From NCBI RefSeq assembly GCF_963664555.1, contig NZ_OY761461.1:992001-1056000 (forward strand): a DNA stretch of 64,000 bases. The letters are read 5' to 3'. Shown piece by piece: positions 5,088 to 31,357 of the stretch (position 1 is its first letter; each line of letters starts with the position of its first letter). Under the pieces are notes generated by a model, which was not told the origin of the DNA, ran no database searches, and saw nothing but the letters and a program-made list of their open reading frames with translations. Origin of the DNA: Labilibaculum sp. (GTDB lineage: Bacteria > Bacteroidota > Bacteroidia > Bacteroidales > Marinifilaceae). The position numbers and the translations under genes were made by a program.

Positions 5088-6371
5088 ATGAATAAAAAAT
5101 CTTTACTGGTAGTTGTGCTAATTGCATTTTATTCTGCTTGCTACGGACAAAGTGATTTCGATAAATATTTTGAGAGCAAAACGCTGCGGATTGATTATAT
5201 GATGGGTGGTGATGCAAATTCTCAAACTATTTTTCTAAAAGAATTGAAAGAAGAGCCTAAATGGGGAGGAAGTAAAACCAATTTAACTGATCTGTTTGGG
5301 TACGGAACATACCGGTTTAAACTTTTTGATGTGGAATCTGGTGAATTAATTTATTCAAAAGGTTTTAACTCTTTGTTTCAGGAATGGCAGTCAACAGCCG
5401 AAGCAAAAGAATTAAAAAGAGCATTTTATCAGGTGAATGTAATGCCTTATCCGAAACAAACAGCACGATTTGTATTGGAATCCAGAAAAAGAGATGGAAC
5501 CATGGAGGTGATTTGGGAATATACGATTGACCCGACTAATTATTTTATTGGTAAGGAAAAACCCAAGAGTGTTTCATTTACAAAGATAATGGGAGAAGGT
5601 GATCCTGCAGAAAGTGTTGATATTGCTTTTATAGCAGAGGGGTATACTGCCGGCGAAATGGAGAAATTTAGGGCGGATGCAAAACGTGTGGCCGGTTATT
5701 TGCTTGATGTACCTCCATTTGATAAGTATGCAGATCGATTTAATATTTATGCTTTAGAATCGGTCTCCGAAGATTCAGGAACTGATATTCCAGGTGAAAA
5801 TATTTATAAAAATACTGTAGTGAATACTACTTTTTATACTTTCGATGTTGATCGTTACCTAACAACTTTTGATATCAAATCATTGCATGACATTTCTGCA
5901 AATGTTCCGTACGATCAGATATTTGTTCTTATTAATACCGACAAGTACGGTGGTGGTGGATTCTACAATTATTATTCGAGTTGTTCGGCCGATAATGCAT
6001 TGTCATATGAAGTTTCAAGTCATGAGTTTGGTCACGGGTTTGCCGGATTGGGAGATGAGTATTATTCATCAGAAGTGGCATATGAAGATTTTTATAATCT
6101 GGAAATTGAACCTTGGGAGCCAAATATTACCACTCTTGTTGATTTTGATCGTAAATGGAAGAGTATGTTGGATGATGCGATTCCTATTCCTACGCCAAGA
6201 ACTCCCGGGTTCGTTGATAGTTTAGGTGTATTTGAAGGCGGTGGTTATATGGCTAAGGGAATTTATTCACCGATGCAGGATTGCAAAATGAAATCGAATC
6301 AAATGAAACATTTTTGCCCGGTTTGTGAGAAAGCTGTGGAGCAGGTGATACTGTTTCATATTGGAAAATAA
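5088..6371 (+). CDS. Peptidase M64 family secreted zinc metalloprotease
   Basis: A 427-residue protein with an N-terminal signal peptide ending near A-C-Y-G-Q-S (residue ~21). The first ~150 residues look like the M64 N-terminal domain. The catalytic zinc motif is H-E-F-G-H-G-F-A-G-L-G-D-E-Y-Y, with His312, Glu313 and His316. M64 includes the IgA peptidase of Clostridium ramosum, but the family is broad in Bacteroidota and IgA cleavage should not be assumed. Two C-terminal cysteine-containing stretches (Q-D-C-K-M-K and F-C-P-V-C) are typical of the family. It is monocistronic and followed by a bidirectional terminator. Confidence 0.88.
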   Translation: MNKKSLLVVVLIAFYSACYGQSDFDKYFESKTLRIDYMMGGDANSQTIFLKELKEEPKWGGSKTNLTDLFGYGTYRFKLFDVESGELIYSKGFNSLFQEWQSTAEAKELKRAFYQVNVMPYPKQTARFVLESRKRDGTMEVIWEYTIDPTNYFIGKEKPKSVSFTKIMGEGDPAESVDIAFIAEGYTAGEMEKFRADAKRVAGYLLDVPPFDKYADRFNIYALESVSEDSGTDIPGENIYKNTVVNTTFYTFDVDRYLTTFDIKSLHDISANVPYDQIFVLINTDKYGGGGFYNYYSSCSADNALSYEVSSHEFGHGFAGLGDEYYSSEVAYEDFYNLEIEPWEPNITTLVDFDRKWKSMLDDAIPIPTPRTPGFVDSLGVFEGGGYMAKGIYSPMQDCKMKSNQMKHFCPVCEKAVEQVILFHIGK

Positions 6372-6399
6372 GTGATATCAAGACTTCTATCAGAAAATA

Positions 6400-6432
6400 A
6401 AAAAATGCGCTCCAAACCGGGGCGCATTTTTT
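6400..6432. terminator. Bidirectional intrinsic terminator
   Basis: A perfect 11-bp stem AAAAAATGCGC (6400-6410) / GCGCATTTTTT (6422-6432) with A and T tails on both sides. It separates the convergent M64 peptidase and DUF6249 genes and can serve both. Confidence 0.9.
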
Positions 6433-6450
6433 GCAGATGATCTGGTTTAC

Positions 6451-6786
6451 TTATTTTTCTTCTTCTTGTTTTTTAGCAATTCCGTAGAAAACCAGTAAGG
6501 CAAGTCCACCGAATAAAAAGATCATTGAAAAGTAAGATACTTCTTCATTTAAACTTGTGTAAGCATCTAAGATATTTCCAATTAGAATTCCAATTGCAAG
6601 ACCAATTAGAAGAACTCCATATTTTAAACTTTCCAAAGTGCTGCACTTTTTTTCTCCAACTAAAAGGTTGATATCCATGCCTTTTTCAATTAAAGCTTGT
6701 CTTTCTTTGTGACGGTGCACTAAGAAAACGATCAAAGGAATGATTCCAAATACGGAAATGATTGCTACTACTCCTGTTATATCCAT
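6451..6786 (-). CDS. DUF6249 small membrane protein
   Basis: A 111-residue protein with an N-terminal transmembrane helix (~6-24), a short basic cytosolic segment (H-R-H-K-E-R-Q-A-L-I-E-K-G), two more hydrophobic helices (~55-72 and ~85-104) and a charged K-K-Q-E-E-E-K tail. This pattern and the R-Q-A-L-I-E-K-G stretch match DUF6249 proteins. In Bacteroidota these often lie next to ECF sigma factors, as here (the divergent sigma gene starts 365 bp away). Function is unknown. Confidence 0.72.
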   Translation of the reverse strand: MDITGVVAIISVFGIIPLIVFLVHRHKERQALIEKGMDINLLVGEKKCSTLESLKYGVLLIGLAIGILIGNILDAYTSLNEEVSYFSMIFLFGGLALLVFYGIAKKQEEEK

Positions 6787-7151
6787 GATTTAAGTTTTAA
6801 GATTAAACTGTTATTATTTTATTGATTGTGAACGAAAACCAAAGCTTGATTTTTGCATTCAACTTTATGACGCAACCTCTTTCAAACAGGTTACAAATAT
6901 TTTATGATTTTTTTGAGGCTTAGAATTATTTCAATAAAAATCATTGTCTTAACTTACCAGTAATGAATTGCAAAAAAAGATATTGAAATTATGGAATAAT
7001 TGATGTAACCGATTCCAGATCCTATGCGTCTAAGTTGTAGATGATTTAATTAAAAGAAAAGAAAGAAGTAAATCAACGCAACATTATGAAACGAAACGAT
7101 GTCTTTTTAGTTGTTGACTTTGTTTTTCAAAATTGAAAGCACAATTTGTAT
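6787..7151. other. Divergent intergenic region, no gene seen
   Basis: This 365-bp AT-rich gap lies between the divergent DUF6249 and ECF sigma genes and must hold both promoters. No convincing promoter box, hairpin or short coding frame could be picked by eye. Confidence 0.5.
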
Positions 7152-26306: not shown

Positions 26307-26673
26307 GTAGTTGGAGCTGTTCGAAAACGAACATTGTGTGTGATGTTTACGAACACTTTTGAAGATGTAAATATTACGTTTTCTGGTGTAATTGTATGAA
26401 AAAGAGTATTATATGTATTTTGGCCTATGGATTGTAATTATACATTCGAAATCATTTATTGGATGGTTTCCCAAATATTGGGAGTGGTGTCCCGGGATTT
26501 TGGTTTTAATAGCATAATTAATTGGTTTTCTTGAATTGAGGGTCTGCGTTGTAGGCTCTCATTCTTTTTGCATCTTTTTTTTCTTCTAAAATACAGAAGC
26601 AGATAGCAATAGCAGGCCTAAATAAAAACAGCTATTCCAAAGGACAGCTGTTTTGTGAGTAGAATACTTTATG
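26307..26673. other. Intergenic stretch after the pseudogene
   Basis: These 367 bp contain no recognisable gene apart from the hairpin at 26625-26654. They may be decayed sequence related to the pseudogene. Confidence 0.4.
26625..26654 (-). terminator. Terminator of the first MFS gene
   Basis: A 9-bp stem AAAACAGCT (26625-26633) / AGCTGTTTT (26646-26654), 19 bp past the MFS stop on the minus strand. It resembles the hairpins after the two paralogous MFS genes. Confidence 0.75.
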
Positions 26674-28038
26674 TTATTTGTGGTTTGATGGCAATTCTAA
26701 GCCGTAACCTGAGACTTTATCTTCTCTTTTAAGAAGTAATGCGAAAATTAATCCTAAAATTCCCAAACAGGCAAACATGATCATGGTGTAGGTGTAATCA
26801 AGATTTTCTGATCCTGCAGGATTTGTTTTGTCAAGAACAAGCCCTGCTAGAATTGGGAATGCCCATAAACCAAGATTCTGAACTGAGAACATCAAACCGT
26901 AGGCAGAACCAATTCGTTTTTCGTCAACCATTTTTGCTACCGATGGCCACATAGATGCCGGAACTAATGAAAATGCAAGACCAAGTATCACCATTAAAAC
27001 ATAAGGAGACAAACTTGTGAAGGCGAAGGTTAGATGAACAACTACAAGAATTACAGATCCATAAATCATTAAGGAGGATGCTTTACCAAATCGATCAACA
27101 AAAAAACCAAATAGAGGAGTGAATATCATTGTTCCAATAGGGAGCATGGATGAAATAAAGCCACTTTCTTTTATGGATAGGTTGAATTTATTTAGAAAAA
27201 AATCGGATGAAAAAGAAAGGAAAGGAAATACTGCGGAGTAAAAAGTCAAACACAAGAGTGTTACATATATGAATGAATGGTTTGTGAGTAATTTGGTGAT
27301 GTCTGAAATGTGAAATTCATCCGTGGTTGAAAGCAAACTTTCCTGTTTTACCTGCCTGTCGAGTTTCAAGTCAAACATCATGTAAATCATGAATACGAGT
27401 AAAGCGGAAAGTACTAAAAATGCTGCAAACCAAATGGCCAGGGTCCATCCCGATTGAGATTTAATTAATACAGGAGAAAGATTAAATGCCAGAAATGATC
27501 CTGTTCGTGCTAATCCTAGTTTTACACCAAATGCCAAGGCTAATTCTTTTCCTTTAAACCATTTTACTATGATTTTACTGATGACTACAATACTTGTTTC
27601 AGCACCCAAACCAAATAGAAATCGTCCCAGCAACATCATTTTAAGTTCAGGAGAATATCCAGGAAAAATGGAAGACATAAATGAATATCCAAAACCATCG
27701 TTGCGGTACAAATTACTGGCGCCATAAGCTGTTACCAAAGCTCCAAAAGCCATAAAAGCAACAAATAGAAAACCAGTACGTCGAATTCCTAACTTATCCA
27801 GAATAATTCCTCCCAATACAGCCATCAGGAAAAAAACATTGGGAATCGAATAAACGGATACAAACAACCCAAAATCGGTACTTGTGAAACCAAACTCTTT
27901 CGTTAACGTTGATTTTAAGGGTGACAGAGCATCGTAAAAATAGTAGTTTGCTGCCAGCACAAAACCTACAAGCAACAGCATAATCCAACGGGTTACGACA
28001 GAATCTCTTAGTGAGTTTTTTATTGTATTTGTGTTCAT
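26674..28038 (-). CDS. MFS transporter, first of three paralogues
   Basis: A 454-residue major facilitator protein with about twelve helices. It shares with its two neighbours the opening (L-R-D-S-V-V-T-R-W), the loop W-F-K-G-K-E-L-A-L-A-F-G, the S-A-V-F-P-F-L-S-F-S stretch, L-V-P-A-S-M-W-P-S-V-A-K, and the G-Y-G-L-E-L-P tail. The layout resembles the MFSD1/oxalate-formate-antiporter-like branch of MFS; related proteins carry dipeptides or organic acids, but no substrate is shown here. It is the shortest and most diverged of the three. Confidence 0.85.
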   Translation of the reverse strand: MNTNTIKNSLRDSVVTRWIMLLLVGFVLAANYYFYDALSPLKSTLTKEFGFTSTDFGLFVSVYSIPNVFFLMAVLGGIILDKLGIRRTGFLFVAFMAFGALVTAYGASNLYRNDGFGYSFMSSIFPGYSPELKMMLLGRFLFGLGAETSIVVISKIIVKWFKGKELALAFGVKLGLARTGSFLAFNLSPVLIKSQSGWTLAIWFAAFLVLSALLVFMIYMMFDLKLDRQVKQESLLSTTDEFHISDITKLLTNHSFIYVTLLCLTFYSAVFPFLSFSSDFFLNKFNLSIKESGFISSMLPIGTMIFTPLFGFFVDRFGKASSLMIYGSVILVVVHLTFAFTSLSPYVLMVILGLAFSLVPASMWPSVAKMVDEKRIGSAYGLMFSVQNLGLWAFPILAGLVLDKTNPAGSENLDYTYTMIMFACLGILGLIFALLLKREDKVSGYGLELPSNHK

Positions 28039-28097
28039 TTGTATAGTGTTTGTTTAAACAAGTTTCGAAAATACAAAAGCTTTACGAAACCGCATAA

Positions 28098-28173
28098 AAA
28101 AGCCGTCGCTTGAACTGCACCCCAAAAGTTGGACACAACATTTGGGGTGCAGTTCAGCTTTAGGACGGCTTTT
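28098..28173 (-). terminator. Terminator of the second MFS gene, loop occupied by an IS remnant
   Basis: The outer 10-bp stem AAAAGCCGTC (28098-28107) / GACGGCTTTT (28164-28173) is a standard terminator. Its loop contains a 46-bp element (28111-28156) flanked by GCT on both sides. With the element and one GCT removed, the loop would be seven bases. Confidence 0.8.
28111..28156. mobile_element. 46-bp IS3-like end-to-end remnant (MITE-like) with 3-bp target duplication
   Basis: Perfect 16-bp terminal inverted repeats (TGAACTGCACCCCAAA at 28111-28126 and its complement at 28141-28156) enclose 14 bp (AGTTGGACACAACA). The left 26 bp look like the end of IS3-family (IS150-type) elements as I recall them. 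GCT directly flanks both sides (28108-28110 and 28157-28159), matching the 3-bp target duplications of IS3. No transposase is left. The family name is from memory; the repeat structure and duplication are seen directly. Confidence 0.65.
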
Positions 28174-28192
28174 AAAAATAATGTTCGATTTA

Positions 28193-29632
28193 TTAATTCT
28201 GAATGTTTGGAAGTTCAAGGCCATATCCTTTTTTACGATCTTCTGCTTTCAGTAAGAAGGCAAATACGCAAGCAAGAATTGTCAATCCAACAAAAACCAT
28301 CCAGGTTGATGAATAGTTAAACATTGGAATTTCACCAGTTTCTCTAAGAGTTTGAATTTTTGCGGAGATATCGCCGGCAGGAACACCTTCTGCTCTAAAG
28401 TTAGCAATTGCCTTTTCGGTTATCTCATTAACACCTGGATTCGTTTTATCCAAAACAACACCTAATAAAATCGGAACCAGCATTAAACCAATATTCTGAA
28501 CATAGAAAATAAGTGCATAAGCTGATCCTAATTGTTTTTCAGGAATAATTTTTGGAACCGATGGCCACATAGCTGAAGGAACTAATGAGAATGCAATTCC
28601 CAAAAGAACTACGGCAAAAATAGCGATCCATGTTGCTGTTAAAGAAGGAATGTAGAAAATTGTATGAACGATTACAAGTAACACTGCTCCAAGAATCATT
28701 ATAGAAGCACCTTTACCATATTTATCGTATATATATCCAAATAAGGGTGTTAAAATAATTGTACCAAATGGTAAGATTGACGGAATATCGCCGGCTGTAG
28801 CAGGATCAATTCCAAACTTGTTCACCATTAATCCTGATGAGAACTTGTAGAATGGGAAAACAGCAGAATAAAATAGCAAACAAAGAATGGCAATGTACCA
28901 GAATCCTTTATTTGAAATAATTACCCCAATATCCGAAATTTTGAAAGGTTCTTCGGCTTCGGCTTCATCTTCCACTTGCTTATCCAATTTCGTATCCATT
29001 ACACAGTAAACAATAAATAGAATTAGAGCAATACTCAAGGCAATGGTTCCTACCAACACAGATGTAGGAATATCAAAAGCTTTAGCTATGCGTGGAGATC
29101 CAAATAAGGCAAGGAATGAACCTAAACGGGCTAAGGCCATTTCGGTACCCATAGCAAGGGCCATTTCTTTTCCTTTAAACCATTTTACGATTATTCGAGA
29201 TACAGTAATACCAGCACCTTCGGCGCCTACACAAAATATTGCAAAGCCAGCAGCTGATATAAACACTCTTGAATCGATTCCAATGATTGTAGTACCCATT
29301 TCGAAATTACCGGCAAATGCATAATATTTAATAATAGCACCTAATATCATGACTATACCAGATCCAATTGCAGTAAACTTGATACCCATTTTGTCGAGTA
29401 TAATTCCGGAAAATATCAGCATAAATGCAAATACATTTAAGTATCCTTGTGCACCAGTAACAAGCCCCCAATCGGTTCCACTCCATCCGTAAGTACTTTG
29501 AATTAGGGTTTGAAGCGGAGAAAGCACCTCCATAAAGGTATATGCAATAAGCATGGAAACCGATACGAGAATTAGCACAAACCAACGAGCGCCTGCGCTA
29601 TCTCTTAATGTCTTTTTAATAGCATCTGTCAT
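28193..29632 (-). CDS. MFS transporter, second of three paralogues
   Basis: A 479-residue major facilitator protein with about twelve helices and the features shared by the trio: L-R-D-S-A-G-A-R-W-F start, I-V-K-W-F-K-G-K-E-M-A-L-A-M-G, A-V-F-P-F-Y-K-F-S and S-L-V-P-S-A-M-W-P-S-V-P-K-I-I-P-E. A ~35-residue hydrophilic insert precedes the last helix pair and is absent from the first paralogue. It has its own promoter region and terminator rather than being cotranscribed. Substrate unknown. Confidence 0.85.
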   Translation of the reverse strand: MTDAIKKTLRDSAGARWFVLILVSVSMLIAYTFMEVLSPLQTLIQSTYGWSGTDWGLVTGAQGYLNVFAFMLIFSGIILDKMGIKFTAIGSGIVMILGAIIKYYAFAGNFEMGTTIIGIDSRVFISAAGFAIFCVGAEGAGITVSRIIVKWFKGKEMALAMGTEMALARLGSFLALFGSPRIAKAFDIPTSVLVGTIALSIALILFIVYCVMDTKLDKQVEDEAEAEEPFKISDIGVIISNKGFWYIAILCLLFYSAVFPFYKFSSGLMVNKFGIDPATAGDIPSILPFGTIILTPLFGYIYDKYGKGASIMILGAVLLVIVHTIFYIPSLTATWIAIFAVVLLGIAFSLVPSAMWPSVPKIIPEKQLGSAYALIFYVQNIGLMLVPILLGVVLDKTNPGVNEITEKAIANFRAEGVPAGDISAKIQTLRETGEIPMFNYSSTWMVFVGLTILACVFAFLLKAEDRKKGYGLELPNIQN

Positions 29633-29734
29633 TACAATAATTTTAGGGTTAAAATTAATTTTAGGTTTAAGAGGTTACTAAATTAAGATAAATGAATAAA
29701 AAAACAAATCAGAAACTATATTGGGACTTATATG

Positions 29735-29764
29735 AAAAAAGCTGTCCCGAAGGACAGCTTTTTT
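29735..29764 (-). terminator. Terminator of the third MFS gene
   Basis: A 13-bp perfect stem AAAAAAGCTGTCC (29735-29747) / GGACAGCTTTTTT (29752-29764) with a CGAA tetraloop. Confidence 0.92.
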
Positions 29765-29785
29765 ATATGATATTTGCTATTTAGG

Positions 29786-31213
29786 CTATTTTTGAATATT
29801 CGGTAATTCTAAGCCGTAACCTTTTTTCTTATCTTCCATTTTTAATAACATACCAACTATGATTGCCAGTAAGCCTAGTCCTGCAAAAATAAGCATTGGG
29901 TTTGTGTAATCGTATAATGGTACTGCTGTGCCGTTAGCTTTTGCTAATGCAACTTCTGGATTCGATTGATCCAATACATATCCAATTAACAATGGAATTC
30001 CCATTAATCCCCAGTTTTGAATCCAAAAGATCAATGAAAAAGCGGTTCCCAATTGATTTTCAGGAATGATTTTTGGAACTGAAGGCCACATAGCAGAAGG
30101 TACTAAAGACAATGCGATTCCTAAAATAATTACCAAAACAACTGCTACAAACCAGTAATTTAATATTGGTAATGAGAATACAGAATGTACTAATAATATT
30201 AAGACGGCTCCAATGATCATCATGGTAGCTCCTTTGCCTTTTTTATCGTAAACACCGCCAAACAGAGGTGTTAGGAATAGTGTTCCTAATGGCAGTAAAC
30301 TTGGTATAATACCTGCAAGATTTTGGTCTAAACCATACTTGTTCACCATTAAATCGGATGCATATTTAATGAATGGAAAAACTGAAGAGTAGAACAATAC
30401 ACACAAAACAGCAATTAACCAAAAGCCTTTGTTGGTCACAATACGACCTATGTCGCTGAATTTGAATGGCTCTTCGCTATCAGTTCCATTCGATTCAGCA
30501 AGTGATGCATCCAGTTTTTTATCCATCGACACATAGATAAAGAAAGTGATGAATCCAATAACCAGCAATATAAATGCAAAAGCAATAGGTGCAGAAACGC
30601 TTGGTCCCATTTTTTCAACTAGTTCACCGTTTACAACTTGGGTGTGTACACTTGAAAAATACGTAGCTAATGGAACCGGAGCTGCAATTGCCAGCATAGT
30701 TCCCAATCGGGCAACAGCCATTTGCATTCCCATAGCCAGAGCCATTTCGTTTCCTTTGAACCACTTTACAATGATTTTAGAAACAGTAATTCCTGCAATT
30801 TCTACACCAACACCGAAAATGGCAAATCCTACAGCAGCCATAAACACATGAGTATGGATACCAAAAGTTGTGTCAGTAACTAAGGTTGGATTAGTGATAG
30901 CCCAATACTTAATGCCGGCTCCTAAAACCATAATTCCGGATGACATAATTCCGGTAAAGCGAACCCCCATTTTATCAAGGATAATACCCCCGAAAATAAG
31001 CATTCCAAAAAATACATTTAACCAGCCATATGCACTGGTGAATATTCCGTAGTTTGTACTTGACCATGCAAACTCGGATTCCAGCATTGGTTTTAAAGGA
31101 GACATTACATCGGTTAAAAAATAACCTGCAAACATCGTGATAGAAATTATCCCCAATGCTCCCCATCGTGCTGCTTTCGAATCTCGAAGAGTCAGTCTTA
31201 GTGCTTCAGTCAT
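29786..31213 (-). CDS. MFS transporter, third of three paralogues
   Basis: A 475-residue major facilitator protein with about twelve helices. It is closest to the second paralogue (I-V-K-W-F-K-G-N-E-M-A-L-A-M-G, S-L-V-P-S-A-M-W-P-S-V-P-K-I-I-P-E-N-Q-L-G, tail K-K-K-G-Y-G-L-E-L-P-N-I-Q-K). A central cytosolic loop holds an acidic stretch before the seventh helix. Divergent from nicotinate phosphoribosyltransferase across 178 bp. Substrate unknown; three copies side by side suggest related but distinct substrates or expression conditions. Confidence 0.85.
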   Translation of the reverse strand: MTEALRLTLRDSKAARWGALGIISITMFAGYFLTDVMSPLKPMLESEFAWSSTNYGIFTSAYGWLNVFFGMLIFGGIILDKMGVRFTGIMSSGIMVLGAGIKYWAITNPTLVTDTTFGIHTHVFMAAVGFAIFGVGVEIAGITVSKIIVKWFKGNEMALAMGMQMAVARLGTMLAIAAPVPLATYFSSVHTQVVNGELVEKMGPSVSAPIAFAFILLVIGFITFFIYVSMDKKLDASLAESNGTDSEEPFKFSDIGRIVTNKGFWLIAVLCVLFYSSVFPFIKYASDLMVNKYGLDQNLAGIIPSLLPLGTLFLTPLFGGVYDKKGKGATMMIIGAVLILLVHSVFSLPILNYWFVAVVLVIILGIALSLVPSAMWPSVPKIIPENQLGTAFSLIFWIQNWGLMGIPLLIGYVLDQSNPEVALAKANGTAVPLYDYTNPMLIFAGLGLLAIIVGMLLKMEDKKKGYGLELPNIQK

Positions 31214-31357
31214 ATTCTTTTATTTTATCTGTTAATGTTGAGTAATTGTTTAAGGGGTGCTAAAGTAAGATTAATCCTTAAAGAAACAAAAAGCAGATAT
31301 CATGTTTTATTTAAACATATCGATTCCATATTTCTGGGCATAGTAGCAGATAATCCC

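Follow-up and report, generated by a model that had tools for sequence, protein, structure and literature searches.

The window, a 64,000-nucleotide stretch of a Labilibaculum sp. genome, carries three neighbouring genes whose products all matched MFS_1 in a profile search, and the terminator of the middle gene is interrupted by a 46-bp palindrome. The features of this site are as follows.

26674..28038, minus strand: downstream MFS paralogue (MFS_1, 134.1 bits)
28098..28107, minus strand: terminator stem arm, AAAAGCCGTC on the plus strand; the 3' arm, with the U-tract, of the minus-strand transcript
28108..28110, plus strand: GCT, left copy of the target duplication
28111..28156, plus strand: 46-bp element, probably a collapsed IS150-like element; its first 39 bp are the IS left end TGAACTGCACCCCAAAAGTTGGACACAACATTTGGGGTG, followed by CAGTTCA
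28111..28126, plus strand: left arm, equal to the terminal inverted repeat of the IS left end
28127..28149, plus strand: core with second arm; corresponds to the hairpin that the full-length parent has within its left end, ahead of a T-run and orfA
28148..28156, plus strand: last bases, TGCAGTTCA; on deletion the known parents would yield TTCACTTCA here, with two differences
28157..28159, plus strand: GCT, right copy of the target duplication
28164..28173, minus strand: terminator stem arm, GACGGCTTTT on the plus strand
28193..29632, minus strand: MFS transporter gene, owner of the interrupted terminator (MFS_1, 108.8 bits)

An earlier, sequence-only reading had described a perfect 16-bp inverted repeat with a 14-bp core in the loop of the middle MFS gene's terminator, with GCT directly repeated on either side. 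Both descriptions were exact: the arms occupy 28111-28126 and 28141-28156, the core lies at 28127-28140, and the GCT copies are found at 28108-28110 and 28157-28159. Removal of the element and one GCT restored the predicted 10-bp stem with a 7-nt loop (GCTTTAG); however, the terminator of the nearest relative, genome G033 of the same species, reads GCCGTCGCTTAGGACGGC and has one T fewer than the window without its insert. Folding of the two strands gave -49.3 and -50.9 kcal/mol (z -9.3 and -9.7), and 0 of 200 shuffles folded as well. The palindrome and the host stem fold into one hairpin and, because the one stacks on the other, the gene is predicted to keep a single, longer terminator. At 46 bp the element encodes no transposase and is not an autonomous IS; it and its short relatives are referred to below as scars.

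Full-length elements were located by patterns of the first 25-30 bp of the scar. One of these (L070/L116) occupies positions 5725-7160 of L070, is 1436 bp long and carries orfA and orfB on one strand, with frames at 5756-6292 and 6343-7122 inside terminal inverted repeats that begin with TG. Another (L069/L118) lies in Marinifilum fragile, and the same left end was found at many contig ends in M. caeruleilacunae and L. filiforme; the 30-bp left end occurs in 24 named records, 18 of them from Labilibaculum or Marinifilum. The parent's OrfB has rve, rve_2 and HTH_21 domains and scored 299 bits on NCBIfam NF033516 (cut-off 160), which supports the earlier assignment of the left end to the IS3 family. 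The search for a full IS3-type element with the same ends was thus successful in other genomes, but not in the window genome, where none of 15 OrfB candidates reached 1e-30 (query P0001) and the 25-bp end, with up to three mismatches, occurred only at the genome's two scars. Other IS3-type copies of that genome (16 rve matches) were rejected as the parent, as none of the motifs scanned in L009-L019 formed such ends; the clear copies L009-L012 sit outside hairpins.

In the full-length element, the left end before orfA reads TGAACTGCACCCCAAAAGTTGGACACAACATTTGGGGTGTTTTTT, a hairpin with a T-run that points into the transposase gene. Among the 33 full-length copies described below, a simple pattern search assigned a T-run to this hairpin in 28 and a Shine-Dalgarno-like motif in 20. 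In many plasmid and viral-contig copies (L135, L144, L165 and others), GGAGGTG within the left-end hairpin precedes the orfA start; Labilibaculum-type left ends have only the T-run, without GGAGGTG. Such a hairpin probably blocks outside transcription from yielding transposase, and the two kinds of left end are perhaps two ways to silence read-through.

The sequence-only reading had taken the element to have shrunk to little more than its two ends. This proved incorrect: the hairpin within the left end supplies the core and second arm, and no more than the last 7-8 bp need another source. In L116 and L118, TTTGGGGT is found both in the left-end hairpin, where it lies in the second arm, and in the right end, and a deletion from one TTTGGGGT to the other produces a 46-mer that equals the genus scars L033 and L035 with 0 mismatches; this exact match indicates a left-end origin of the core and second arm. 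Relative to that product, the window scar differs at 2 of 46 positions; it is the exact product of no parent found, and the predicted products of the other 31 of 33 full-length copies equal no scar in the collection. Arm mismatches were absent from 13 of 25 distinct scars versus 3 of 25 distinct full-length end pairs (Mann-Whitney p 1.4e-5), a comparison in which scars and full-length copies from different lineages are pooled. Target duplications were present in 11 of 30 scars versus 29 of 33 full-length copies, and complementary triplets flank 5 of the 19 scars without a duplication (L027, L038, L053, L105 and L109, judged by eye), a weak count given AT-rich flanks. Quasi-palindromes are known to undergo hairpin-templated correction, and the perfect arms and complementary triplets fit such a process; in the window scar, the last bases (28148-28156) were presumably perfected in this way.

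The terminator was compared in relatives lacking the element, as had been proposed. The 46-bp scar was absent from all 15 relatives read, and the terminator was uninterrupted in 14 of these. Eight relatives aligned through the site, and all eight have an uninterrupted stem-loop, some with a stem mismatch; six additional, partly matching relatives (L084, L085 and L089-L092) have an uninterrupted hairpin after the same gene, the L090 site being judged by eye. The gene order of the window is shared by five of the eight aligned relatives, and another gene lies beyond the terminator in the remaining three. G033 matches the window at 99.6% identity over 26505-28111, a match that breaks off at the element. 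Insertion and collapse must both postdate the split from G033, unless the insert was lost there. In place of the window MFS genes at 28193-29632 and 29786-31213 (window 28174-31300), G033 has a different gene (514 aa).

In the fifteenth relative, G002 (L087 1-750), the terminator that follows the orthologous MFS gene is occupied by a different IS150-like element, of which the left part is present (TGCACTGCCCCCAAAAAGTTAGACACTATTTGGGGGTATTTTTATG). This element lies in the opposite orientation and is cut off by the contig start; its orfA-like frame matches HTH_Tnp_1 and, weakly, the IS3 model, and orfA is apparently interrupted. Past the end of the element the sequence reads TTCAGGTGGCTTTT, which is half of a terminator. 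Since both the element and its orientation differ, G002 represents an independent hit on the same terminator. The parental IS was found at the window site in none of the relatives read. Two of these relatives (L089 and L092) have loop-less, scar-like palindromes upstream of the MFS terminator, such as GCTATCCAGTACCCCAAATTTGGGGTACTGGATAGC.

The search for other genomic copies of the 46-bp element returned one, with one mismatch, at position 410440 of the same closed 4.97-Mb genome. This copy is shared, with the same flanks, by L062 and by the same-species genome G033 and is therefore the older of the two; the window copy is absent from G033. Among the loci collected, 38 sites with related 45-48-bp palindromes were listed, 8 of which are ends of full-length elements, which leaves 30 distinct scar sites. 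These copies elsewhere exclude a chance origin of the window palindrome. An identical 46-mer occurs at different loci in different organisms (L001, L053 and L067). Furthermore, three families have genomes with one and the same 48-bp palindrome (L103, L110 and L111), a distribution suggestive of transfer as part of a larger element. A search for the parent at three genus scar sites, of which the G027 site was aligned, revealed no relative with an IS there; G031 has an uninterrupted terminator at that site.

Full-length copies were sampled from 56 genomes of the family, 393 genomes of the order, viral contigs and plasmids, with 21 regions retrieved; loci whose match ended before residue 250 were left out. 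Ends were proposed for 44 sites, and 13 loci yielded no ends. Eleven of the 44 sites were dropped because they had no IS150-like ends (L130, L159, L154, L155, L125 and L127), belonged to other IS3 lineages at 30-39% identity (L121, L126 and L123), had a masked flank (L128) or lacked one flank (L152), and the resulting 33 full-length copies have both flanks and clear ends. Twelve later regions comprised six that entered the loop test, L181 and L182 as outside controls, L184 with wrong ends, and L174-L176, for which only the flanks were used.

A target duplication of 3-5 bp flanks 29 of the 33 full-length copies, and the junction rebuilt by removing one duplication lies in a hairpin loop in 27 of 33, compared to 159 of 495 mismatched joins and 143 of 1175 shifted host positions (12%). 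The Bacteroidales subset scored 8 of 8 and the six added relatives 5 of 6; the scars scored 17 of 30, compared to 84 of 450 mismatched joins and 129 of 1080 shifted positions. In a small outside control of six other IS3-family copies, the result was 0 of 6, with 37 of 204 shifted positions. When partner flanks were permuted, 0 of 20000 permutations reached the observed sum, both for the 30 scars and for the 33 full-length copies; individually, flank scores exceeded the 95% control in only 13 of 30 scars and 14 of 33 full-length copies. The centre of the target duplication is no more than 1 nt away from that of the loop at 22 of 35 sites and coincides with it in 10, whereas 8% would fall within 1 nt at random; this test covered 35 of 39 sites, as L129, L119, L151 and L157 have no duplication. 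In L138, for example, TTCG is duplicated within ACCGCC-TTCG-GGCGGT. T- or A-runs are found near the joint in 29 of 33 full-length copies versus 449 of 1298 shifted positions, and in 24 of 30 scars versus 435 of 1200. It should be noted that the sites are partly non-independent (L165 and L166 share a target in opposite orientation, and L135 and L142 are alike), and that the stricter loop test and the loop-centre test replaced a count of spanning pairs after the result of that count was known. At least eight base pairs across the joint were present in 33 of 33 full-length copies versus 303 of 396 mismatched joins, and in 27 of 30 scars versus 273 of 360, a poor separation in both cases owing to the many A and T runs in the flanks.

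Strict loop hits came from Bacteroidota, Bacillota and Pseudomonadota, and the single Treponema copy (L173) was missed. The strict test missed six of the 33 copies in all (L169, L141, L140, L147, L173 and L172) as well as L180; by eye, L140, L147, L169 and L180 lie in hairpins with larger loops, and no clear terminator is evident at the full-length copies L141, L172 and L173. Unjoined flanks of the annotated IS150 (L174), ISKpn8 (L175) and L176 scored 8.6, 13.7 and 13.2 against a 95% control of 11.7, so that IS150 falls within the control range. In the OrfB tree, IS150 and ISKpn8 are placed among hairpin-inserted rows, apart from L009, L121, L123 and L126, and hairpin-inserted rows are spread across the IS150-like part; the inner and deep forks of this tree are weakly supported and its hairpin labels were partly set by eye. 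A relative with 52% identity, L178 in an E. coli record, lies inside a palindrome, AGACGC-GTCA-GCGTCG, with a 4-bp duplication (GTCA) equal to the loop. The record is unannotated there; we take the element to be IS1397 and its palindrome to be a REP unit. Altogether, these data suggest that this group of IS elements aims at hairpin loops, and the window scar probably did not reach its terminator loop by chance, given that full-length relatives also occupy hairpin loops and that the G002 element lies in the same terminator.

The window scar is probably a collapsed IS3-family (IS150-like) insertion that landed in a hairpin loop and underwent near-precise deletion, leaving a palindrome and a terminator. 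In the proposed history, a full-length element of about 1.44 kb with orfA and orfB would enter a hairpin loop, usually that of a terminator, and duplicate 3-4 bases, often the loop itself; transposition into an extruded or single-stranded hairpin could give a duplication equal to the loop. A deletion, which we infer to have occurred in situ, between TTTGGGGT in the left-end hairpin and the right end would then remove about 1.39 kb and leave a 46-bp near-palindrome, whose arms hairpin-templated repair may have perfected. The full insert would split the host terminator, and the collapse to 46 bp would rebuild one long hairpin. Counting against this history are the failure to find the parental IS at the site in any relative, the two mismatches between the window scar and the deletion product, the small number of full-length copies (two of 33) that give an exact scar, the need for insertion and collapse both to follow the split from G033, the other gene and the missing T in G033, the lower frequency of target duplications in scars, and the recurrence of the 46-mer at other loci. 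Nearly precise excision of Tn10 likewise is a deletion between short repeats near the ends that leaves a short palindromic scar; here, in contrast to Tn10, one repeat lies inside the IS left-end hairpin and the excision is deduced from sequence. The window scar would be a fresh example of a kind of decay product already known. The scars illustrate a possible decay of such an insertion back to an enlarged terminator.

It is unlikely, although several observations would agree with it, that the 46-48-bp palindromes are mobile MITEs, inserted into terminator loops by an IS150-like transposase acting in trans. Like MITEs, they are short, with two IS-like ends and a target duplication; both ends are retained and the GCT duplication of the window site is clean, the scars too sit in hairpin loops, and mobility would explain the identical 46-mer at different loci and organisms as well as the 48-mer of three families. 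However, MITEs differ from the 46-bp scar, of which the window genome has two copies, one mismatch apart, and whose arms come mostly from one end. The lower frequency of target duplications in scars than in full-length copies also argues against mobility, as does the exact fit of the deletion product to L033 and L035. IS3-family elements move via a DNA circle, and a circle of about 49 bp would be hard to form.

Recombination between two copies in two terminators, removing the paralogue that in G033, G027 and G032 follows this terminator, is less probable still as the origin of the scar. The long G033 match (26505-28111) does stop at the element and the neighbouring gene differs, but the right terminator arm also matches G033, and five other genomes (L079-L083) have the gene order of the window without the element. 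That the palindrome is a native, conserved part of the terminator that was never inserted would account for the single hairpin formed by scar and stem; this reading was ruled out by the absence of the scar from all 15 relatives, by the copies at unrelated loci and by the IS left end. The collapsed IS150-like insertion is the preferred explanation.

A tentative extension, given slightly less than even credence, is that the whole IS150-like branch picks its targets by shape, with a transposase that recognises an extruded hairpin and joins across its loop, making the target duplication equal to the loop. The circle formed in IS3 transposition has joined ends, two inverted repeats around about 3 bp; if targeting were by shape, these would form a similar hairpin and the target may mimic the element's own junction. 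REP insertion by IS1397 would then be one case, and collapsed copies would leave IS-made terminators that hosts keep. A shared loop rule would also explain how such elements can build up between genes and do little damage, and target recognition could then be tested on designed hairpins.

Group IIC introns, which insert after terminators, likewise are mobile elements with terminators as targets, but they are retroelements that differ in chemistry and position. To our knowledge, most accounts of the IS3 family treat its target choice as loose and insertion into REP units as a special case. In the literature searched, to which subscription journals mostly do not belong, no loop rule covering the IS150-like group in general was found, and the novelty of such a rule is only a lead. 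In the available text of PMC1525189, PMC2817692, PMC9208149 and PMC4923244, IS150-like elements in terminators are not described. The nearest cases in that text are IS1397 and ISKpn1 (REP) and IS1272 (hairpins, with deletion). As described in PMC1525189, IS1397 and ISKpn1 belong to the IS3 family and insert into REP or palindromic units, and thus share a hairpin-forming palindrome as target; they differ in using one repeat family per host, whereas the targets here are diverse, mostly terminator-like hairpins in three phyla. IS1272/TnSha1, according to PMC4923244, also target hairpins, several of them shown to be terminators, with little sequence specificity; those elements enter the stem, delete part of the hairpin and produce no duplication, in contrast to the loop and 3-4-bp duplication found here.

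Several further observations were made among the collected loci. The two scars of L036, at 895-940 and 1132-1176, are 237 bp apart and resemble each other in their right flanks (GGTGTGGCTT); they perhaps mark a terminator that was duplicated. A sequence of about 120 bp that adjoins the scar of L051 (about 1323-1443) is a dispersed repeat that recurs in G032, where the whole L051 query had 26 matches. The orthologues of the G027 scar site in relatives (L188-L190 and L192) have short terminators, AAACGGCACCCCAAATTTTCATTTAGGGTGCCGTTT for instance, which resemble scars that have eroded and whose loop has become shorter. Finally, a terminator at 2312605-2312636 of the window genome (L005 1514-1545), CACCCCAAATGTTATACCTAACATTTGGGGTG with a T-run, resembles the IS left-end hairpin at 27 of 32 positions and is found at the same place in five genomes of the genus (G000, G033, G028, G034 and G030); it is possibly an old IS end kept as a terminator and, if targeting is by shape, perhaps an example of the IS-made terminators that hosts keep.
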